From: Opitutales bacterium
Lineage (GTDB): Bacteria > Verrucomicrobiota > Verrucomicrobiia > Opitutales > T3Sed10-336
Assembly (NCBI GenBank): GCA_007130045.1
Contig: SLTG01000040.1
Location: forward strand, 1 to 35,890
Reading direction: 5' to 3'
Length of the DNA stretch: 35,890 nucleotides
The notes below the pieces were generated by a model. The model worked only from the letters and a program-made list of their open reading frames with translations. It was not told the origin of the DNA and did no database searches. Made by a program: the position numbers and the translations under genes. This document shows, one piece after another, positions 25,384 through 33,978 of the stretch. How positions within the stretch are numbered: the stretch's first letter is position 1; each line of letters begins with the position of its first letter.

Positions 25384-26172
25384 CTATATACGCGACACCT
25401 TTTCATCGGAGCCGATTCCGGCGCAAATCACCTCGATGTTCGCACGGCGAAGCGCGTCAACAAGTTCGCTCGGCGCCTTTTCGTCTGTGATCACGCAGTC
25501 GATACTGTCGAGACCGCAAACAAACGACATCGATTTGCGGCCGAATTTCTTGTGGTCGATGCAGAAAACCACTTTGCGCGCGGCACGGATCATCGCTTTC
25601 TGAATATCGATCAGGAGGGCGTGACTGTTATAGACACCCTCCTCGGTAATCCCGCTGCACCCCATGATCGCCACGTCCGCGTGCATCTCGGAAAACGCGC
25701 TGATAGTCAGCGGCCCGACAAGCACTCCCAGCCGCGGATAAAGCACGCCGCCGGCGACGACGATCTCCACAAGACTGGACGAAGCGAAGAGATTCGCCAC
25801 CGGCAGCGAGTTTGTCAGGATGTGCGGCTTCTTGTCACCGAGACGGCAGGCGACGTGGTAAACCGTCGTTCCCGCATCGAGAATCACGCTCTGGTCCGGT
25901 CGGATCATCTCCGCGCACACCCTTCCTATCGCTTCCTTTTCCTCGACCTCCCGAGTGTCGCGCATCCGGAATACGAATTCATCGCTCTTCGGCTGGACGA
26001 TCCGTGCCCCGCCATGTGTCCGCCGAATGTTCCCGCCCTCCTCCAATGCGGTCAGATCCCGCCGTACGGTCGATACGGAAACCTCGACATGACCGGCGAG
26101 TTCCTCCAGCGACGCGAACTCCACCCGTCGCAGGTATTCCTCCAGTCGTGACTGACGTTCTTCCGTCTGCAT
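25384..26172 (-). CDS. DeoR-family transcriptional regulator of the BMC operon
   Basis: A 262-residue regulator. An N-terminal winged HTH (about 5-58, SLEELAGHVEVSVSTVRRDL, then the IRRTHGGA wing) is followed by a DeoR C-terminal sugar-phosphate sensor domain with DAGTT (99-103), a ligand-binding motif of the family. It is divergent from pduL with 142 bp between starts, and a DeoR-type gene is a usual member of PVM microcompartment loci. It probably represses the operon until a sugar phosphate intermediate appears; the ligand is inferred, not visible. ATG 26172 was chosen; a TTG at 26181 would add three residues. Confidence 0.9.
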   Translation of the reverse strand: MQTEERQSRLEEYLRRVEFASLEELAGHVEVSVSTVRRDLTALEEGGNIRRTHGGARIVQPKSDEFVFRMRDTREVEEKEAIGRVCAEMIRPDQSVILDAGTTVYHVACRLGDKKPHILTNSLPVANLFASSSLVEIVVAGGVLYPRLGVLVGPLTISAFSEMHADVAIMGCSGITEEGVYNSHALLIDIQKAMIRAARKVVFCIDHKKFGRKSMSFVCGLDSIDCVITDEKAPSELVDALRRANIEVICAGIGSDEKVSRI

Positions 26173-26210
26173 GGTGATCAAAAGGACACTTTCGCCAGGC
26201 GCTTATTGAT

Positions 26211-26314: not shown

Positions 26315-26995
26315 ATGCAAAACCCTTCACCACCAGTGCCGGATCGAGCGGTAATCGAACATTTTGTCAGGCAGGCCGTCTATCGCCAACTGGGAAAACC
26401 GGTTCCCGCGACGGCCACCGCCCCGAATCCGCTCGTCGTCAATGTCAGCGCCCGGCACTGCCATCTGACGCAGGACGCCGTGGAACTTCTTTTTGGAAAA
26501 GGCCACGAACTCCGCGTCCACAAGTGGCTGTACCAGGAGGGCCAGTTCGCGGCTCAAGAAACCGTCACTCTGATCGGGCCGCGCAGCCGCGTGATTTCCA
26601 ACCTTCGGATTCTCGGCCCATGCCGCAATATCAACCAGGTCGAGTTGGCGTACACAGACGCCGTCGCCCTCGGTTTCGATGTTCCCCTCCGCCTTTCGGG
26701 CGACATCGACGGCACGCCCGGCTGCATGCTGATGGGACCCTCCGGTTTTCTGGAGATGCCCAACGGCGTCATTCGGGCGATGCGCCACGCCCACATGCAC
26801 CCGGATGACGCGGCGTTTTACGCCGTCAAGAACAAGGAGATGATGAAACTCCGCGTGGGCGGCCCCTGCGCCGTCACGTTCGAGGAGGTCCTCGTCCGCG
26901 TCGATGAAAGTGTTAAACTCGAAGTGCATATCGACACCGACGAAGGCAACGCCTGCAATCTTCGGGCCGACACGCCATGCGAACTTCTCAAATAA
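26315..26995 (+). CDS. pduL: PduL-type phosphotransacylase of the microcompartment
   Basis: A 226-residue enzyme that transfers an acyl group from CoA to phosphate, regenerating CoA inside the shell; here probably lactyl-CoA to lactyl-phosphate. Two PduL domains are visible. Metal-ligand motifs are H48-C-H50 (SARHCHLT) and H158-A-H160-M-H162 (RHAHMHP), with a conserved H205 in EVHIDTDEGNA. Residues 10-27 (DRAVIEHFVRQAVYRQLG) form an amphipathic helix followed by a Pro/Ala-rich linker, the form of an encapsulation peptide. First gene of the operon. The start is the ATG just before this peptide; the frame is open further upstream through the promoter region but without homology. Confidence 0.93.
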   Translation: MQNPSPPVPDRAVIEHFVRQAVYRQLGKPVPATATAPNPLVVNVSARHCHLTQDAVELLFGKGHELRVHKWLYQEGQFAAQETVTLIGPRSRVISNLRILGPCRNINQVELAYTDAVALGFDVPLRLSGDIDGTPGCMLMGPSGFLEMPNGVIRAMRHAHMHPDDAAFYAVKNKEMMKLRVGGPCAVTFEEVLVRVDESVKLEVHIDTDEGNACNLRADTPCELLK

Positions 26996-27039: not shown

Positions 27040-27309
27040 ATGAATGAAGCATTAGGAATGGTCGAAACCAAGGGTTACACCGGCAGCGTGGAAGCCAGTG
27101 ACGCCATGGTCAAAGCCGCAAATGTCAGCCTCGTTAAAACCGTCCAAATCGGCGGCGGTTTCATCACCGTCCTCGCCCGCGGGGACGTCGGCAGTGTAAA
27201 GGCAGCCGTCGATGCCGGTTCGTCCGCCGCGTCACGCGTCGGCGAACTCGTCAGTTCACACGTAATCGCCCGGCCTCATGAGGATCTCCTCAAGGTCTTC
27301 ATGAAATAA
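27040..27309 (+). CDS. BMC-H shell hexamer protein, copy 1
   Basis: An 89-residue single-domain BMC (PF00936-type) protein that forms hexameric facet tiles. Landmarks: [19 protein letters not shown], the inter-subunit lysine K25 in [20 protein letters not shown], and VIARPH (75-80) carrying the edge arginine. The pore loop reads IGGG (37-40) rather than the common IGSG, so the hexamer pore lacks the serine side chain. It lies 44 bp after pduL and 27 bp before the second copy. Confidence 0.95.
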
Positions 27310-27336: not shown

Positions 27337-27615
27337 ATGGCACAGCAAGCATTAGGAATGATCGAAGTGCAGGGCCTTTGCGCCCTGCTCGAAGCCAGCG
27401 ACGCCGCCCTCAAGGCCGCCGACGTCACACTCGTCGGCTGGGAGAAGATCGGCAGCGGCTTCGTCACCGCCTTCTTCCGCGGCGATGTCGCCGCGGTGAA
27501 AGCCGCCACCGACGCCGCCGCCTCCGCCGCATCACAAATCGGCAAGGTAATCAGCGTCCAGGTGATCCCGCGCCCTCACCAGGAACTCGCAGGACTCGGA
27601 AGCTGGCTCGGGTAA
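27337..27615 (+). CDS. BMC-H shell hexamer protein, copy 2
   Basis: A 92-residue BMC-H protein with the canonical pore loop IGSG (38-41), the conserved lysine K26 (LKAADV) and VIPRPH at the edge. Tryptophan and glutamate precede the pore loop (GWEK, 34-37), unlike the other two copies. The short C-terminal tail GLGSWLG differs from its neighbours. A 128-bp gap without a gene separates it from the kinase gene. Confidence 0.95.
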
Positions 27616-27743: not shown

Positions 27744-28958
27744 ATGAAGATCCTCGTCGCCAACCTCGGTTCGACTTCTCTAAAGTACCGCCTCTTCGAA
27801 TTCGAAGGAGAGCGGACGGAGTTGTTGCATCGCGGCGGCTTTGAACGGGTCAGCGATTACGCGAGCGCGATCGACGACTGCCTGAAAGACCTGGGGGAAG
27901 CGGGCGTGCTAGTGAGCGAGGAAGATCTGGCGGCCGTAGCCTTTAAGACCATTATGGCGAAAGACCGCAGCGGCTGCGTTCTCGTGGACGACGATGTGCT
28001 CGCTGCGATGGAGGCCTGCAATTACATCGCACCGGCCCACAATCCGCCTTACGTGGAGGGCATCCGGATTTTCTCGCGCAAGATGCCAGGCACTCCGATG
28101 ATCGCGCTCTTCGAGACCGCGTTCTACCAGTGGATCCCTGAAGCCACGCGCCGCTACGCGGTGCCGGAAGACTGGTACGAACTCGGCGTGCGGCGATTCG
28201 GTTTCCACGGGGCCAGCCACAAGTTTATCGCGGAGCGTTCCGCCGAACTCCTCGAAAGGCTGGACGTCGCGGAGCGGGCCAAGTCCCTCTACTCCGGCAA
28301 CGGCCCGGCGCCGCCTCCATCAGGGGCGCCGCCTCTGCGCGTAATCTCCTGCCACCTCGGCGGCAGTTCGTCGGTCACGGGCCTCCTCGACGGCGTGGCG
28401 ATCGGCAACAGTTTCGGCACGAGCCCGCAATCCGGTCTCCCGCAAAACAATCGCAGCGGCGACCTAGATCCTTTCGCGCTTCTCCACGTCATGCGAGAGA
28501 AGAATCTCTCGGTCGAAGAAGCCGAACGCGTCCTCAGCACGGAGTCCGGTCTCAATGCGCTCTCGGGAGGTTACAACGACCTGCGCGACATCAAGGAAAA
28601 GGCCGACGCCGGCGACGCCTGCGCCGCAACGGCGATCGACGTGTACATCGCCCAGATCCGGCACTGGATCGGCGCGTTTCACCTTTCCCTCAATGGGATC
28701 GACGCCCTGGTGTTCACCGCAGGCATCGGAGAGAACAATCCATGGCTGCGCGAAAAGGTATGCGCCGGTCTCGACCAGCTCGGCATCGCCCTCGACCCGC
28801 CGGCCAACGAGGCCGCAATCGCGACTGAAAAAGTAATCAGCACCGGCGATTCACGCGTCACGGTAATCGTCATCCCGACAAACGAGGAAGCCGTCGTCGC
28901 GCGCGAAGCCCGGCGCCTTCTGGTCCGCGAAAACCTGCCCGCCGGCCGGAAAAACTGA
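27744..28958 (+). CDS. ackA: Acetate kinase-family acyl kinase of the microcompartment locus
   Basis: A 404-residue ASKHA-fold kinase that would convert acyl-phosphate plus ADP to carboxylate plus ATP, in this locus probably lactyl-phosphate to lactate. Retained active-site residues, with Methanosarcina AckA equivalents: N7 (N7), H99 in HNPPYVEGI (H123), H155 in RFGFHGASH (H180), H204 in CHLGG (H208), R237 in NNRSGDLDP (R241) and E381 in PTNEE (E384). Two are changed: the R91 position is K68 (AFKTIM) and the D148 position is E124 (FETAFYQ). HLGGSSS replaces HLGNGAS, and a Pro-rich loop (186-197) is inserted. No encapsulation peptide is seen at either end. ATG 27744 starts the conserved MKILVANLGS. 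Confidence 0.88.
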   Translation: MKILVANLGSTSLKYRLFEFEGERTELLHRGGFERVSDYASAIDDCLKDLGEAGVLVSEEDLAAVAFKTIMAKDRSGCVLVDDDVLAAMEACNYIAPAHNPPYVEGIRIFSRKMPGTPMIALFETAFYQWIPEATRRYAVPEDWYELGVRRFGFHGASHKFIAERSAELLERLDVAERAKSLYSGNGPAPPPSGAPPLRVISCHLGGSSSVTGLLDGVAIGNSFGTSPQSGLPQNNRSGDLDPFALLHVMREKNLSVEEAERVLSTESGLNALSGGYNDLRDIKEKADAGDACAATAIDVYIAQIRHWIGAFHLSLNGIDALVFTAGIGENNPWLREKVCAGLDQLGIALDPPANEAAIATEKVISTGDSRVTVIVIPTNEEAVVAREARRLLVRENLPAGRKN

Positions 28959-29033: not shown

Positions 29034-29324
29034 ATGTCACAGCAAGCAATAGGTATGTTGGAAACGCGCGGCCTCGTCGCCCTCATCGAGGGTACGGACG
29101 CCATGCTTAAGGCGGCCAATGTCGAACTGGCCGGCCCGATGAAACAGGTCGGCAGCGCCCTGGTCACCGCAACCGTTATCGGCGACGTCGCCGCGGTCAA
29201 AGCGGCCACGGACGCCGGCGTCCAGGCGGCCAAGGCAGTCGGCGGCGACGTCATCAGCGTGCATGTCATCGCTCGTCCTCACGACGATGTCTCTCGAATC
29301 CTGCCAAAGAAATCCTCGAAATAA
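29034..29324 (+). CDS. BMC-H shell hexamer protein, copy 3
   Basis: A 96-residue BMC-H protein with K26 (LKAANV), [13 protein letters not shown] and VIARPH. The loop before the pore is one residue longer than in copies 1 and 2 (AGPMKQ), and the pore reads VGSA (39-42). The tail ends in a lysine-rich PKKSSK. ATG 29034 has a good ribosome binding site (AAAGGAAG, 29022-29029). The frame is also open back to an ATG at 28974 without one, which would add a basic 20-residue N-terminus (KKTTRKK); this is less likely. It lies 6 bp before the first BMC-P gene. Confidence 0.93.
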
Positions 29325-29330
29325 ACGATC

Positions 29331-29648
29331 ATGTTCCTTGCGAAGGTGGAAGGATCCGTCGTTTCAACGAAGAAGGACCCGACGATGCACGGTCGCCGGC
29401 TTCTTCTACTGCGTCCTCAACTGGTGGATGAAGAGGACCCCTCGCGCTTCCGCCCGGGCTTGAACACAATTGTCGCCGTCGACATCATCGGCGCGGGCGA
29501 GGACGAGATGGTCCTGTTTTCACAGGGCAGCTCCGCCCGCCTGGCCGCAAACCTGAAGGACTGTCCCGTGGACGCCGTGGTCATCGGCATCGTGGATACG
29601 GTCGATGTATTCGGGAAGAAGATATTCAGCGCGAGCAATACTAAATGA
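29331..29648 (+). CDS. BMC-P (EutN/CcmL) shell pentamer protein, copy 1
   Basis: A 105-residue EutN/CcmL-type protein forming pentamers that cap the shell vertices. Landmarks: the N-terminal LAKVEGSVVST strand, MHGRRLLLLRPQLVDEE, VAVDIIGAGEDEMVLFSQGSSAR and AVVIGIVDTVDVF near the end. The GAGxxxxVLxxxGxxAR core is the family hallmark. It overlaps the aldehyde dehydrogenase start by 4 bp (ATGA), suggesting translational coupling. Confidence 0.95.
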   Translation: MFLAKVEGSVVSTKKDPTMHGRRLLLLRPQLVDEEDPSRFRPGLNTIVAVDIIGAGEDEMVLFSQGSSARLAANLKDCPVDAVVIGIVDTVDVFGKKIFSASNTK

Positions 29649-31144
29649 ACATGAACGAACAACAGGTCCAGGACATCGTCGCGGAAGTTCTCCGGAAGCT
29701 CGGGAAGGTTTCCTCCGCGCCCGCCGATTCAGGCGGCCGCGCGCCGGCGAATAACCCCGGGAACCCGCCGGCGCCCGCGCATCCCCGTCCCCGCCCGGCA
29801 CCCTCTTCGGGCGGACGCCGTTTCGGAATCTTCAACGACGTCCCGGCGGCGTGTCGCGCGGCTCACGACGCCTTCATTCAGCTCGGAGACAAGGGGCTCG
29901 AGGGACGGCGGAAAGTCATCGACATCGTCAAGAGCATGGCCGAAGACAACGCCGAACGCTGGGGTCGCGACGAACTCGAGGAAACGAAGATCGGAAGGCT
30001 CGATCACAAGATCGAGAAGCTGCAAATCCTCAAACTCGTGCCCGGCGTCGAGTTCATTCATCCCTTTGGAATGAGTGGCGACAACGGGATTACGATGGAA
30101 GAGTACACGCCGTTCGGACTTGTCGGCTCCGTCACCCCGGCAACGCACTCCGTCCCGACGATGAGCGGGAACATCATCAATATGGTGGCAGCCGGCAACT
30201 CGTGCATCTTCAATCCCCACCCCGGCGCCGCCCGCTGCGCCGCAGCGTCCGCCCGCGCCTACAACGAGGCCATCCACCGCGAACTGGGCATCGAGAATCT
30301 TATCTGCGTTATCGAAACGCCGACCTTGGAATCCTTTGACGCCATTTGCGCCGACGAACACGTCCGGCTCCTGTGCATCACCGGTGGCCCGGCCGTCGTC
30401 AAGGCGGCGATGAAAACCGGCAAACGCGCGATCTGCGCCGGTCCCGGCAATCCTCCCGTGGTCGTCACCTGCTGCGCCGACCACCGTAAAGCCGCCCAAT
30501 CGATTATCCAGGGCGGGGCCTACGACAACAACCTGCTCTGCATCGGGGAAAAGCAGGTCTTCGTCGTGGACCGCGTCGCCGACGAACTCATCGGCCACCT
30601 GGAACGCGAAGGCGCGGCCCGGTTGAAAACCGCCCAGATCGACAAACTCAAACAGGAAGCCTTCATTTGGCACCAGGACAACGGGAGTTCGCACGCGGCC
30701 ATCAACAAGGATCTTGTCGGAAGGGACGCGACCCTTCTTGCCGAACGAGCCGGCGCCACAGTCCCGTCCGGCACTCAGCTTCTCTTTGGGGAAACGGCCG
30801 CCGACGATGTTTTCGTCGAAGAGGAACAGATGATGCCATTTGTCCCGATTGTTCGAGTCCGGGACGTTCAGGAGGCGATTCAGCGCGCAAAAGAATCCGA
30901 GCACAATTATAGACACACCGCCATCATTCACACCCGCAACGTCGATCACATGACCGCCATGGCACGGGCGCTCGACACCAGCCTCTTCGTGAAAAACGGC
31001 CCCTGCATGGCCGGCCTCGGCCTCGGCGGCGAAGGCTACCTCAGCTATTCAATCGCCACGCCGACCGGCGAAGGTGTCACCAATCCCAGGACGTTCACGC
31101 GCACCCGCCGCTGCGTCATGGTCGATAACCTGAAGATTTACTGA
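29645..31144 (+). CDS. CoA-acylating aldehyde dehydrogenase of the microcompartment (PduP/EutE-like)
   Basis: A 499-residue enzyme that oxidises an aldehyde to acyl-CoA with NAD+, here probably lactaldehyde to lactyl-CoA. Residues 4-20 (NEQQVQDIVAEVLRKLG) form an amphipathic encapsulation helix. A Pro/Ala/Gly-rich linker (about 24-57) leads to the ALDH domain. The catalytic cysteine is C299 in YDNNLLCIGEKQ. The segment PATHSVPTMSGNIINMVAAGN (about 165-185) and the absence of the usual catalytic Glu loop fit CoA-acylating rather than hydrolytic ALDHs. The gene sits between pentamer genes in a run with 4-bp overlaps or gaps of 2-4 bp, so stoichiometric co-expression with the shell is likely. 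Confidence 0.93.
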   Translation: MNMNEQQVQDIVAEVLRKLGKVSSAPADSGGRAPANNPGNPPAPAHPRPRPAPSSGGRRFGIFNDVPAACRAAHDAFIQLGDKGLEGRRKVIDIVKSMAEDNAERWGRDELEETKIGRLDHKIEKLQILKLVPGVEFIHPFGMSGDNGITMEEYTPFGLVGSVTPATHSVPTMSGNIINMVAAGNSCIFNPHPGAARCAAASARAYNEAIHRELGIENLICVIETPTLESFDAICADEHVRLLCITGGPAVVKAAMKTGKRAICAGPGNPPVVVTCCADHRKAAQSIIQGGAYDNNLLCIGEKQVFVVDRVADELIGHLEREGAARLKTAQIDKLKQEAFIWHQDNGSSHAAINKDLVGRDATLLAERAGATVPSGTQLLFGETAADDVFVEEEQMMPFVPIVRVRDVQEAIQRAKESEHNYRHTAIIHTRNVDHMTAMARALDTSLFVKNGPCMAGLGLGGEGYLSYSIATPTGEGVTNPRTFTRTRRCVMVDNLKIY

Positions 31145-31148
31145 TACC

Positions 31149-31442
31149 ATGCAACTCGCGCGCGTCGAAGGCAACATCACCTCCACCGTCAAGCATCCCA
31201 GCTTCAACGGATGGCGACTGCTGATATGCCAGCCGGTCGACTCGGAAGGAACCGCTTCCGGATCCCCGGTGGTCGCGATCGATCCCTACGGCGCCGGCCT
31301 TCACGAATCGGTCATCGTCTCGACCGACGGCAAAGCCGCCCGGCGCGCGATCAACGACAACAAAAGCCCCGTGCGCCACATGGTCGTCGGAATTGTTGAC
31401 CGCAAGGAAGCGCCGGCAAAACCTTTGAGAAAGACAGCCTGA
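31149..31442 (+). CDS. BMC-P (EutN/CcmL) shell pentamer protein, copy 2
   Basis: A 97-residue EutN/CcmL-type vertex protein: LARVEGNITSTVKHPSFNG, WRLLICQPVD, VAIDPYGAGLHESVIVSTDG and HMVVGIVDR. It has the shared core of the first copy but a shorter middle loop. It starts 4 bp after the aldehyde dehydrogenase stop and ends 2 bp before copy 3. Confidence 0.94.
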   Translation: MQLARVEGNITSTVKHPSFNGWRLLICQPVDSEGTASGSPVVAIDPYGAGLHESVIVSTDGKAARRAINDNKSPVRHMVVGIVDRKEAPAKPLRKTA

Positions 31443-31444
31443 CC

Positions 31445-31750
31445 ATGCGTCTCGGAAAAGTCATCGGCCGCGTCACTCTCGGAAAGACCGCTCCCGAATT
31501 CGATGGAGCGCGTTGGCTGGTGGTCACTCCATACAACCGCGGGTACTTTCCGGACAGCCCCTACCCGGACGACGGCCGGCTCAGTTCGGATCCAAGCGTG
31601 GTCGTTTACGACAACCTCGGCGCGGGCGTCGGCGACACCGTCGGATTCATCGAAGGACGGGAAGCCGCCTCTCCCTTTTCGGAACGCATGGCCATCGACG
31701 CCATCAGCGGCGTGCTGGTCGACAAAATCAATTACCATCCTTTACCATGA
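31445..31750 (+). CDS. BMC-P (EutN/CcmL) shell pentamer protein, copy 3
   Basis: A 101-residue EutN/CcmL-type vertex protein: LGKVIGRVTLGKTAPEFDG, RWLVVTPYNRGYF, VVVYDNLGAGVGDTVGFIEG and ISGVLVDKIN. It is the most divergent of the three, with Tyr in place of Asp before the GAG core (VVYDNLGAG) and an acidic proline-rich loop (PDSPYPDDG). It overlaps the aldolase start by 4 bp (ATGA). Confidence 0.93.
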   Translation: MRLGKVIGRVTLGKTAPEFDGARWLVVTPYNRGYFPDSPYPDDGRLSSDPSVVVYDNLGAGVGDTVGFIEGREAASPFSERMAIDAISGVLVDKINYHPLP

Positions 31751-32820
31751 GAAGAGTCATCACCGAGAAAGAGATTAAGGAAATGTTGAGCCGGGGAGAG
31801 GATCCCGGTTCCATACCCGCCGACGCGCTTTTGACGCCTTCGGCCCGCGATCTCCTCAGCGGCAACGGAACGGCGGGCCCGCGCGCGCCTCAGTCAAACG
31901 CCGCCCCATCCGAGCCTCACATTCCCGATTACGAGTACAGATGGACGCCCGGATCCGACCCGAAGTCACCGGAAGAGATCCAGCGGTTTTTTAACTCTCC
32001 GGAAATCGCCCAGATAAAAAAGCGAATGTGCGATATCGGACGGCGTATCTGGGAAAAGGATTATGTGGACGGCAACGGAGGCAATCTCACCGTTCGCGTC
32101 GGAGACAATCTCATTCTCTGCACGCCGACTCTGATATCCAAAGGTTTCATGAAGCCCGCGGACATCTGCATGGTCGATCTGGACGGCAACCAGCTCGCCG
32201 GGACGCTCAAGCGCACCAGCGAGGTGAACACGCACCTGGGCATCATGAAGCGGCAGCCCAAGGCCAAGTCCTGCGTTCATGCCCACCCGCCGCACGCAAC
32301 CGCCTTTGCCGTCGCCTCGGTCAAACCGCCCACCTGCATGATCCCCGAAGCCGAAGTCTTTCTCGGGGAAATCGGTCTCGCGCCCTACGAAACGCCGGGC
32401 ACTCCCGAAAACGCGCGGGTGGTCGGCGAAATGGGCGTGGATCACCAGGCTATCATCATGGAGAACCACGGGGTCATCACCTGGGGCAAGGACATCGAAG
32501 ACGCCTACTGGAAGATGGAAAATACCGATGCCTACTGCAAGACGATCTGGGTAGCCTCCCAGCTCGGAAAAGGACTGAAGACATTCGGCCCCGAGAAACT
32601 GCAGGACCTCATCGAGATTCGCAAAAGTCTGGGAATGGAGGACAGACGCGCGGAGTTGAGGGAATGCGAGCTGTGCGACAACGGCGAATTCAGACCCGGC
32701 GTTACCTGCGCGGTTCCCGACAGGATCGACCGCCATACCGAAGGCGACCCGGAGGCGGAGGACATGGTCCGCGCCGTGACCGACCTGATCGAAAAGGAAC
32801 TTCGTCGAAACGGTGGATAA
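31747..32820 (+). CDS. Class II aldolase (fuculose/rhamnulose-1-phosphate type) with N-terminal targeting peptide
   Basis: A 357-residue zinc aldolase that would cleave a deoxy-ketose 1-phosphate into DHAP and lactaldehyde, the first step of the microcompartment pathway. The core spans about 85-285. Zinc ligands are H178 and H180 (CVHAHPPHA) and H241 (MENHGVIT), and the catalytic acid/base is E159 in RTSEVNTH. The usual family length is near 215 residues; the surplus is an N-terminal arm (1-80) and a C-terminal extension (about 290-357) with CELC at 307-310. The arm begins with an amphipathic helix (RRVITEKEIKEMLSRG) and then IPADALLTPSARDLL, which resembles the N-terminus of EutT. The exact sugar cannot be told. 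Last gene of the tight operon run. Confidence 0.9.
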   Translation: MRRVITEKEIKEMLSRGEDPGSIPADALLTPSARDLLSGNGTAGPRAPQSNAAPSEPHIPDYEYRWTPGSDPKSPEEIQRFFNSPEIAQIKKRMCDIGRRIWEKDYVDGNGGNLTVRVGDNLILCTPTLISKGFMKPADICMVDLDGNQLAGTLKRTSEVNTHLGIMKRQPKAKSCVHAHPPHATAFAVASVKPPTCMIPEAEVFLGEIGLAPYETPGTPENARVVGEMGVDHQAIIMENHGVITWGKDIEDAYWKMENTDAYCKTIWVASQLGKGLKTFGPEKLQDLIEIRKSLGMEDRRAELRECELCDNGEFRPGVTCAVPDRIDRHTEGDPEAEDMVRAVTDLIEKELRRNGG

Positions 32821-33051: not shown

Positions 33052-33978
33052 ATGAAAACAACCATCATCGGAGGAGGAGGCCGAGTAGGCTCCTGTGCGG
33101 CATTCGCCCTGCAGTGCGGCGGCGGCGTATCGGAAATTCAATTACTCGATGCCAATCAAGAGATGGCCGAGGGCGAGGCGCTCGACCTCCTCCATGGCAG
33201 CGCGTTTTCCACGGACCAGCGGATCTATGCGGGAGACTACGACCGCGCAAGGGACAGCGATATTTTCGTCATCACGGCCGGTCTGAGAAGAAAGCCGGAC
33301 GAATCGCGACTCGACCTCATCAACCGCAACGTTTCACTCTTCAACCAGATCCTCGACAGCATGCTCGGCTCCGGGATGAAGAAAGACGCGATCGTTTTCG
33401 TGGTCTCGAACCCGGTGGACATTCTCACGCAGATCGCAACCGAGCGTCTCGGCCTTCCCTGGCAGCAGGTGCTGGGCCTGGGAACCCAGCTCGACACGTC
33501 CCGGTTCTGTTCGTTTATCGCCGAGGAACTCCATCTCGCCCCGACCCAGATCCGTGCGCTCATCCTCGGAGAACACGGCGACTCCATGGTCCCGATCTGG
33601 TCCAGCGCCGCGGTCAACGGGCTTCCGCTCGAAGGACTCCCGGAATTCACCCCCAATTTCCAGAACCAGGTCTTCGCCCGCACGCGCGGCAGCGGAGCCG
33701 AAGTGATCAAAAAGAAGGGCGGCGCCGGCTGGGCGGTGGGCATCACCATTCGCGACACAATCAACGCCATCGCCCTCGACCAGAAGCGCCTCCAGCCCGT
33801 CTCCTCCCTCCAGCACGGCGCCTACGGCATCCGGGACGTCTGCCTTAGCGTTCCAACCGTGGTCGGGCGCCAGGGCGTACTCGACCAGGTCGAAATCACA
33901 CTCTGGCCCAAGGAACAACTTGGCCTCCAGAACTCCGCCAAGGCCCTCAAGGAAACCCTCCAAAAGGTTCGGCAATAG
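33052..33978 (+). CDS. mdh: Malate/lactate dehydrogenase family oxidoreductase
   Basis: A 308-residue NAD-dependent 2-hydroxyacid dehydrogenase. The Rossmann motif is IIGGGGRVGS (5-14), and D33 after the second strand selects NAD. Catalytic residues: R86 (R109 of LDH), D148 with R151, and H175 in GEHGDS. The specificity position (Gln102 in LDH) is R80 in AGLRRKP, which by established LDH/MDH knowledge points to malate/oxaloacetate rather than lactate/pyruvate. Members of this family in PVM microcompartment loci have been proposed to be lactate dehydrogenases. No encapsulation peptide is evident. The 231-bp gap before it suggests its own promoter. The frame is open upstream to 32923 but homology starts at ATG 33052. 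Confidence 0.9.
   Translation: MKTTIIGGGGRVGSCAAFALQCGGGVSEIQLLDANQEMAEGEALDLLHGSAFSTDQRIYAGDYDRARDSDIFVITAGLRRKPDESRLDLINRNVSLFNQILDSMLGSGMKKDAIVFVVSNPVDILTQIATERLGLPWQQVLGLGTQLDTSRFCSFIAEELHLAPTQIRALILGEHGDSMVPIWSSAAVNGLPLEGLPEFTPNFQNQVFARTRGSGAEVIKKKGGAGWAVGITIRDTINAIALDQKRLQPVSSLQHGAYGIRDVCLSVPTVVGRQGVLDQVEITLWPKEQLGLQNSAKALKETLQKVRQ

Follow-up and report, generated by a model that had tools for sequence, protein, structure and literature searches.

The PVM organelle serves the breakdown of plant and algal sugars. A PVM locus type that includes a DeoR-family regulator has been described (PMC4207490), and the same paper cites Erbilgin 2014 for the demonstration that the compartment functions in the use of L-fucose and L-rhamnose. 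The PVM route from lactaldehyde via lactyl-CoA to lactate is a published proposal (PMC4784909, PMC6620236, PMC8857213). The acetate kinase homologue of these loci in Planctomycetes and Verrucomicrobia, for which the published pathway ends with conversion of lactyl-phosphate to lactate, is listed as PvmG in PMC6620236 and called 'acetate kinase' in PMC4207490, the label usually given to this last step.

In acetate kinase (AckA), R91 and R241 touch the substrate carboxyl, and R91A variants of the M. thermophila and P. gingivalis enzymes have less than 1% of activity left, 0.6% or lower (PMC6461089). D150 of S. typhimurium AckA, the equivalent of D148, is a metal-site residue (PMC3475010), and the acyl pocket is formed by V93, L122, F179 and P232 (PMC5517563). 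N211 of M. thermophila AckA contacts the beta-phosphate and hydrogen-bonds to G239, and variants of these two residues lose 6- to 200-fold in activity (PMC4390882). PduW, the propionate kinase of PDU, is likewise an AckA-family protein that is encoded in a BMC operon and acts after PduL. The PPi-dependent acetate kinase of Entamoeba histolytica is a natural variant that is also altered at the equivalents of N211 and G239.

The window analysed here, a stretch of 35,890 nucleotides from an Opitutales bacterium, contains an operon that is a PVM-type microcompartment locus. A divergent gene upstream (25384..26181, minus strand) encodes a DeoR-family regulator with NCBIfam matches to DeoR/GlpR-type regulators. 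All other genes of the locus lie on the plus strand, beginning with the PduL phosphotransacylase (PTAC; 26315..26995; PF06130, 237.8 bits), the predicted source of lactyl-phosphate, whose N-terminal helix looks, as judged by eye, like an encapsulation peptide. Three BMC-H shell proteins are encoded at 27040..27309, 27337..27615 and 29034..29324 (PF00936; 93, 95 and 77 bits), and the kinase gene lies between the second and the third. Next come a BMC-P (EutN/CcmL) vertex protein (29331..29648; PF03319), a CoA-acylating aldehyde dehydrogenase (29645..31144; PF00171; NF011927, 582 bits against a cut-off of 403), a second, BMC-P-like vertex protein recognised by reading the translation (MQLARVEGNITSTVKHPS...; 31149..31442, end approximate) and a third BMC-P vertex protein (31445..31750; PF03319). 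The class II aldolase (31747..32820; PF00596, 156 bits) is the PVM signature enzyme that produces lactaldehyde; its best NCBIfam match is the L-fuculose-phosphate aldolase model, under the cut-off. A lactate/malate dehydrogenase homologue, the proposed NAD-recycling enzyme of PVM loci, is found at 33052..33978 (PF00056, PF02866). The window kinase shares its locus type, neighbours and family with PvmG. A published PVM-specific feature of PduL, the change of Gln77 to Tyr or Phe (PMC4784909), is absent from the window, where position 77 is Gln as in 95 of 109 PVM PduLs (Tyr in 6 of 109).

The kinase gene (27744..28958, plus strand) encodes 404 amino acids with no internal stops. Its N-terminus, MKILVANLGSTS, is the same start as that of the aligned relatives; a longer in-frame ORF from 27378 was therefore rejected as the kinase gene. 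Membership in the AckA family, as the original prediction had proposed, was confirmed by a score of 297 bits to PF00871 (acetokinase family; gathering cut-off 22 bits) and by an AF2 model (pLDDT 92.8) that superposes on 1G99 with a Z of 50.7 and an rmsd of 1.6 A over 371 residues, an AckA-type ASKHA fold at full length. The best match among known structures was 2IIR (E 5.2e-80), and the matches were acetate and propionate kinases. With TIGR00016 (ackA) the kinase scored 284.8 bits, just under the curated cut-off of 293.4, whereas a second, canonical AckA in the host genome scored 411.7 bits. In comparisons of the kinase with eight relatives, dN was about 0.17-0.31 and dS about 1.2-1.8. The gene encodes an intact AckA-family protein under purifying selection, and pseudogene formation or degeneration was rejected since dN/dS is well below 1.

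Active-site residues, numbered as in M. thermophila AckA, were compared between 116 PVM-type kinases and 52 other AckA-family proteins, including PduW and the T. maritima and M. thermophila AckA. The window kinase was placed by pairwise HMMER alignments to 1G99/1TUU and 2IIR. These alignments agree with the two replacements that had been proposed at the outset: AFKTIM of the kinase aligns with GHRVVHGG of acetate kinase, so that R91 corresponds to K68, and FETAFYQ aligns with FDTAFHQ, so that D148 corresponds to E124. F67-K68 (27942..27947, plus strand) replaces H90-R91, with F and K each present in 115 of the 116 PVM-type sequences (one gap) and H-R in all 52 others. At the metal site, E124 (28113..28115, plus strand) is Glu in 116/116 and Asp in 52/52. 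K91 and E148 thus show no exception among the PVM-type sequences that span these columns (115 and 116), and the question raised with the prediction, whether the two residues are specific to this locus type, is answered in its favour. R91 and D148 are visible in the printed alignments of the T. maritima, M. thermophila, M. smegmatis and P. gingivalis AckA and K. pneumoniae PduW chains, and the PVM-type substitutions were seen in no acetate or propionate kinase examined. The replacements are neither chance nor a one-off; they are fixed in the PVM-type clade. From the canonical carboxylate-binding Arg pair the window kinase retains R241 and has Lys for R91, and from the metal-site pair Asp148 and Glu384 it retains E384 and has Glu for D148.

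Further changes lie around the phosphate. The reported replacement of HLGNGAS by HLGGSSS was confirmed as CHLGGSSS against CHLGNGSS, in which G207-S208 of the PHOSPHATE2 loop (28362..28367, plus strand) takes the place of N211-G212; G and S are each found in 116/116 of the PVM clade, and N in 45/52 and G in 52/52 of the others. N235-N236 in LOOP3 (28446..28451, plus strand) replaces G239-T240 (N in 111/116 and N in 115/116, against G in 50/52 and T in 52/52). L233 is altered as well (Q229 in the kinase). In the acyl pocket, A98 (28035..28037, plus strand) stands for L122, with Ala in 116/116 PVM-type sequences and Leu in 46/52 others. N211 and G239 vary in some non-PVM AckA too, for example in the canonical AckA of the host, which has an unusual His and Ala at these positions. 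Relative to canonical AckA (M. thermophila 1G99/1TUY, T. maritima 2IIR), which has the same fold, the PVM kinase therefore differs by R91K, D148E, H90F, L122A, N211G, G212S, G239N and T240N.

The claim that the other active-site residues remain was correct for part of the site. The window kinase keeps N7, S10, S12, K14, H123, H180, H208, R241, D283, R285, G331 and E384, but H90, L122, N211, G212, L233, G239 and T240 are replaced, and every one of these replacements is shared by 95% or more of the PVM clade. R241, G331 and E384 are conserved in all 168 sequences. D283 and R285 are found in 116/116 of the clade, with one and two exceptions, respectively, among non-PVM proteins, and N7, S10, S12, K14, H123, H180 and H208 are present in at least 114 of 116 PVM-type rows, the three His residues in every one. 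Most of the metal, phosphoryl and adenosine residues of canonical AckA are thus retained in the PVM kinase. Eleven of 13 changed conserved columns fall inside literature-defined active-site motifs (Fisher p = 0.018, a value that is only indicative because the motif list was drawn from the literature after an earlier column table had been seen).

The PVM kinase also differs from canonical AckA in length. In the main PVM clade about 23 N-terminal residues are missing, and some 20 residues that form a short helix and a Pro-rich loop are inserted at residues about 173-197 (window 28260-28335). A deep-branching pair of loci (L034/L035) has the N-terminal segment and no such insertion.

The original prediction explained the altered positions by a reshaped acyl pocket. 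R91 and D148, however, contact the carboxyl group and the metal, so that neither shapes the pocket. The acyl-pocket change is L122A, the only clade-wide one among V93, L122, F179 and P232 (V93I occurs in the window kinase and 25 others of the clade). The acyl-pocket idea alone also does not explain the phosphate-loop changes N211G, G212S, G239N and T240N. In sequence, N211G and G239N resemble an exchange of places between two residues that are hydrogen-bonded to each other in M. thermophila AckA. R91K/D148E and N211G/G239N may be compensating swaps that preserve the carboxylate, metal and phosphate contacts, and L122A would make room for a larger acyl group.

Since R91 is essential in characterised AckA and N211 and G239 variants are strongly impaired, the same changes could mean that the protein has lost kinase function and acts as an acyl-phosphate phosphatase, regulator or scaffold. 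This is very improbable. Charge is preserved at 91 (R to K) and 148 (D to E), R241, H123, H180, K14, N7, E384, D283, R285 and G331 are essentially invariant, and the low dN/dS likewise argues against it. Loss of function, which had been offered as an alternative, is unlikely on these grounds, and its companion, a phosphatase role, gained no positive support. The adenosine motif is also present: G331 is found in 116/116 and I332 in 106/116 PVM-type kinases, both in the window kinase. This differs from the PPi-dependent Entamoeba enzyme (PMC5517563), and the adenosine pocket of the PVM kinase is not expected to be blocked. PPi dependence was judged unlikely, as the window kinase has G331-I332 and not the occluding residues that replace them in PPi-dependent enzymes. 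The protein is probably an active kinase and would use ADP and ATP. The sequence evidence all points to action as an acyl-phosphate kinase, in which two canonical sequence features of acetate kinase fail. A lack of R91 could nevertheless make the enzyme slow, given the effect of R91A in characterised AckA; no kinetics of R91K or D148E mutants were found in the papers covered.

PVM-type kinases were surveyed by a scan of 289 genomes from the host phylum. Twenty-eight of these, the host included, had PVM-type matches of at least 418 bits, and no other match exceeded about 230 bits. Two further PVM-type kinases, in G010 and G125, were recovered as split matches; they lie in PVM-type loci and have the same substitutions. 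A scan of genome contigs gave at least 588 loci, of which the best 80, a set biased towards sequences near the query because it was chosen by score, came nearly all from Verrucomicrobiota, with one Sumerlaeota record; the comparison of PVM-type kinases is almost wholly one of Verrucomicrobiota sequences. BMC-H genes lie near the kinase in 80/80 of these best loci, PduL in 73/80, the aldehyde dehydrogenase in 73/80 and the aldolase in 63/80, with the contig ending early at many of them. The loci from the scan of the host phylum have the same neighbours as far as their short flanks extend. The viral contigs scanned held no relatives of the kinase, and matches in the plasmid collection were all below 60% identity and, among those listed, of canonical AckA or PduW type by name.

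In a tree of 68 rows, one branch with a support of 100/100 separates 45 PVM-type rows from 23 others. PVM-type kinases form a monophyletic, BMC-only clade. The branch is long, with 1.09 changes per site, which would fit drift of the substitutions along one long-diverged lineage, in a kinase that acts broadly on short-chain acyl phosphates (acetate, propionate, lactate, glycolate) and has no real specificity for lactyl-phosphate. The variation of N211 and G239 outside the clade fits this, and AckA is often promiscuous, the S. typhimurium enzyme accepting formate, acetate and propionate (PMC3475010). We nonetheless regard drift as unlikely: the changes are fixed and concentrated in active-site motifs, L122A is universal in the clade, and a separate canonical AckA coexists in the host genome. 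Membership in a BMC operon is not in itself the cause of the change, since PduW, from another BMC operon, retains H90, R91, L122, D148, N211 and G239, and has V93A instead. The PVM kinase is a genuine variant within a known enzyme family, fixed and confined to this organelle, and the substrate assigned to it from the pathway is a likely one.

The host genome bears on the substrate. A phosphoketolase gene directly adjoins the host's canonical ackA (L001 2835-4130, G000:C114). Phosphoketolase is a producer of acetyl-phosphate. A canonical AckA beside it suggests a division of labour, with acetyl-phosphate going to the canonical AckA and lactyl-phosphate to the PVM kinase. In many genomes with a PVM kinase no second AckA was returned by searches that scored limited candidates, an absence that is not firm; the PVM kinase there might also serve acetate.

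For the supply of lactaldehyde, the host has, close together on one contig, a gene for a RhaI-like L-rhamnose isomerase and one resembling rhamnulokinase. Their scores, 497 bits to TIGR02635 and 376 bits to TIGR02627, fall short of the curated cut-offs. RhaA (PF06134) is absent from the host genome, and the RhaI-type isomerase is present instead. With these isomerase-like and sugar kinase-like genes and the operon aldolase, the host would be able to make lactaldehyde. A fucose isomerase match (29.8 bits), with no NCBIfam match, was not used as evidence. That weak signal, the aldolase scores under every curated NCBIfam cut-off among the matches listed and the known promiscuity of class II aldolases (PMC4207490) would be in keeping with an aldolase that cleaves another sugar phosphate in the host too, and a kinase whose substrate is a different 2-hydroxyacyl phosphate, for example glycolyl-phosphate. 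This we consider improbable in view of the two closely spaced rhamnose genes of the host and of the fucose and rhamnose use reported for the compartment.

Lactyl-phosphate is left as the most likely substrate, an assignment drawn from the neighbouring genes, and a lactyl-phosphate kinase is the best fit to the pathway. L-rhamnose, and perhaps L-fucose, would be isomerised and then phosphorylated, and the aldolase inside the shell would cleave the product to DHAP and L-lactaldehyde. The aldehyde dehydrogenase would convert L-lactaldehyde to lactyl-CoA, and PduL would convert lactyl-CoA to lactyl-phosphate. In the last step the PVM kinase would phosphorylate ADP with lactyl-phosphate and so yield L-lactate and ATP. 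Since neither end of the kinase has an obvious encapsulation peptide, this step probably takes place outside the lumen. Overall, the kinase is probably the dedicated acyl-phosphate kinase of the PVM microcompartment, in the PvmG position, with L-lactyl-phosphate and ADP as its likely substrates. That the PVM-only clade rebuilt its carboxylate and metal contacts (R91K with D148E) and its beta-phosphate loop (the N211G and G239N reciprocal swap) to become a dedicated 2-hydroxyacyl-phosphate (L-lactyl-phosphate) kinase is a more tentative proposal, somewhat short of an even chance. Against lactyl specificity counts V93, the main length-limiting residue, which is kept or is the larger Ile, as in the window kinase. 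The Gln at position 77 of the window PduL also counts against the pathway reading. A dedicated kinase of this sort would, to our knowledge, have no precedent. Its role in the pathway has been published before, and the coordinated active-site change is apparently the new part; no description of it was found in the PVM literature covered, outside of which lies Erbilgin 2014, which may mention it.

Should lactyl-phosphate prove to be its specific substrate, the enzyme is wrongly labelled 'acetate kinase' in Verrucomicrobiota genomes by the hundred, and the use of fucose and rhamnose, a real carbon flux in algal blooms, owes its ATP yield to a distinct enzyme. The PVM clade would then offer a natural experiment on R91, D148, N211 and G239, which count as essential or important residues of acetate kinase, as well as a sequence signature to mark PVM kinases in metagenomes.

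Several minor observations concern the rest of the locus. PVM PduLs have an invariant Tyr (109/109) at rPduL residue 73, which is Leu in S. enterica and Lys in R. palustris PduL. The LDH/MDH homologue (33052-33978) scores under the L-LDH cut-off and has Arg, in AGLRRKPDESR, at the LDH/MDH position, common to 27/27 PVM-type homologues found; lactate dehydrogenases have Gln at this position, and malate dehydrogenases have Arg. The aldolases fall into two groups by their identity to that of the window: most loci whose kinases are closest to the window kinase have values of roughly 45-56%, and many Opitutales-type loci whose kinases are more distant have 56-64%. This suggests aldolase replacement or a mosaic locus. 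Three PVM loci (L064, L095, L100) come from records with the titles Klebsiella pneumoniae, Proteobacteria and Candidatus Sumerlaeota. Mislabelling of bins probably accounts for the first two. The Sumerlaeota locus, whose kinase has a deep position within the PVM clade, may reflect a genuine transfer.
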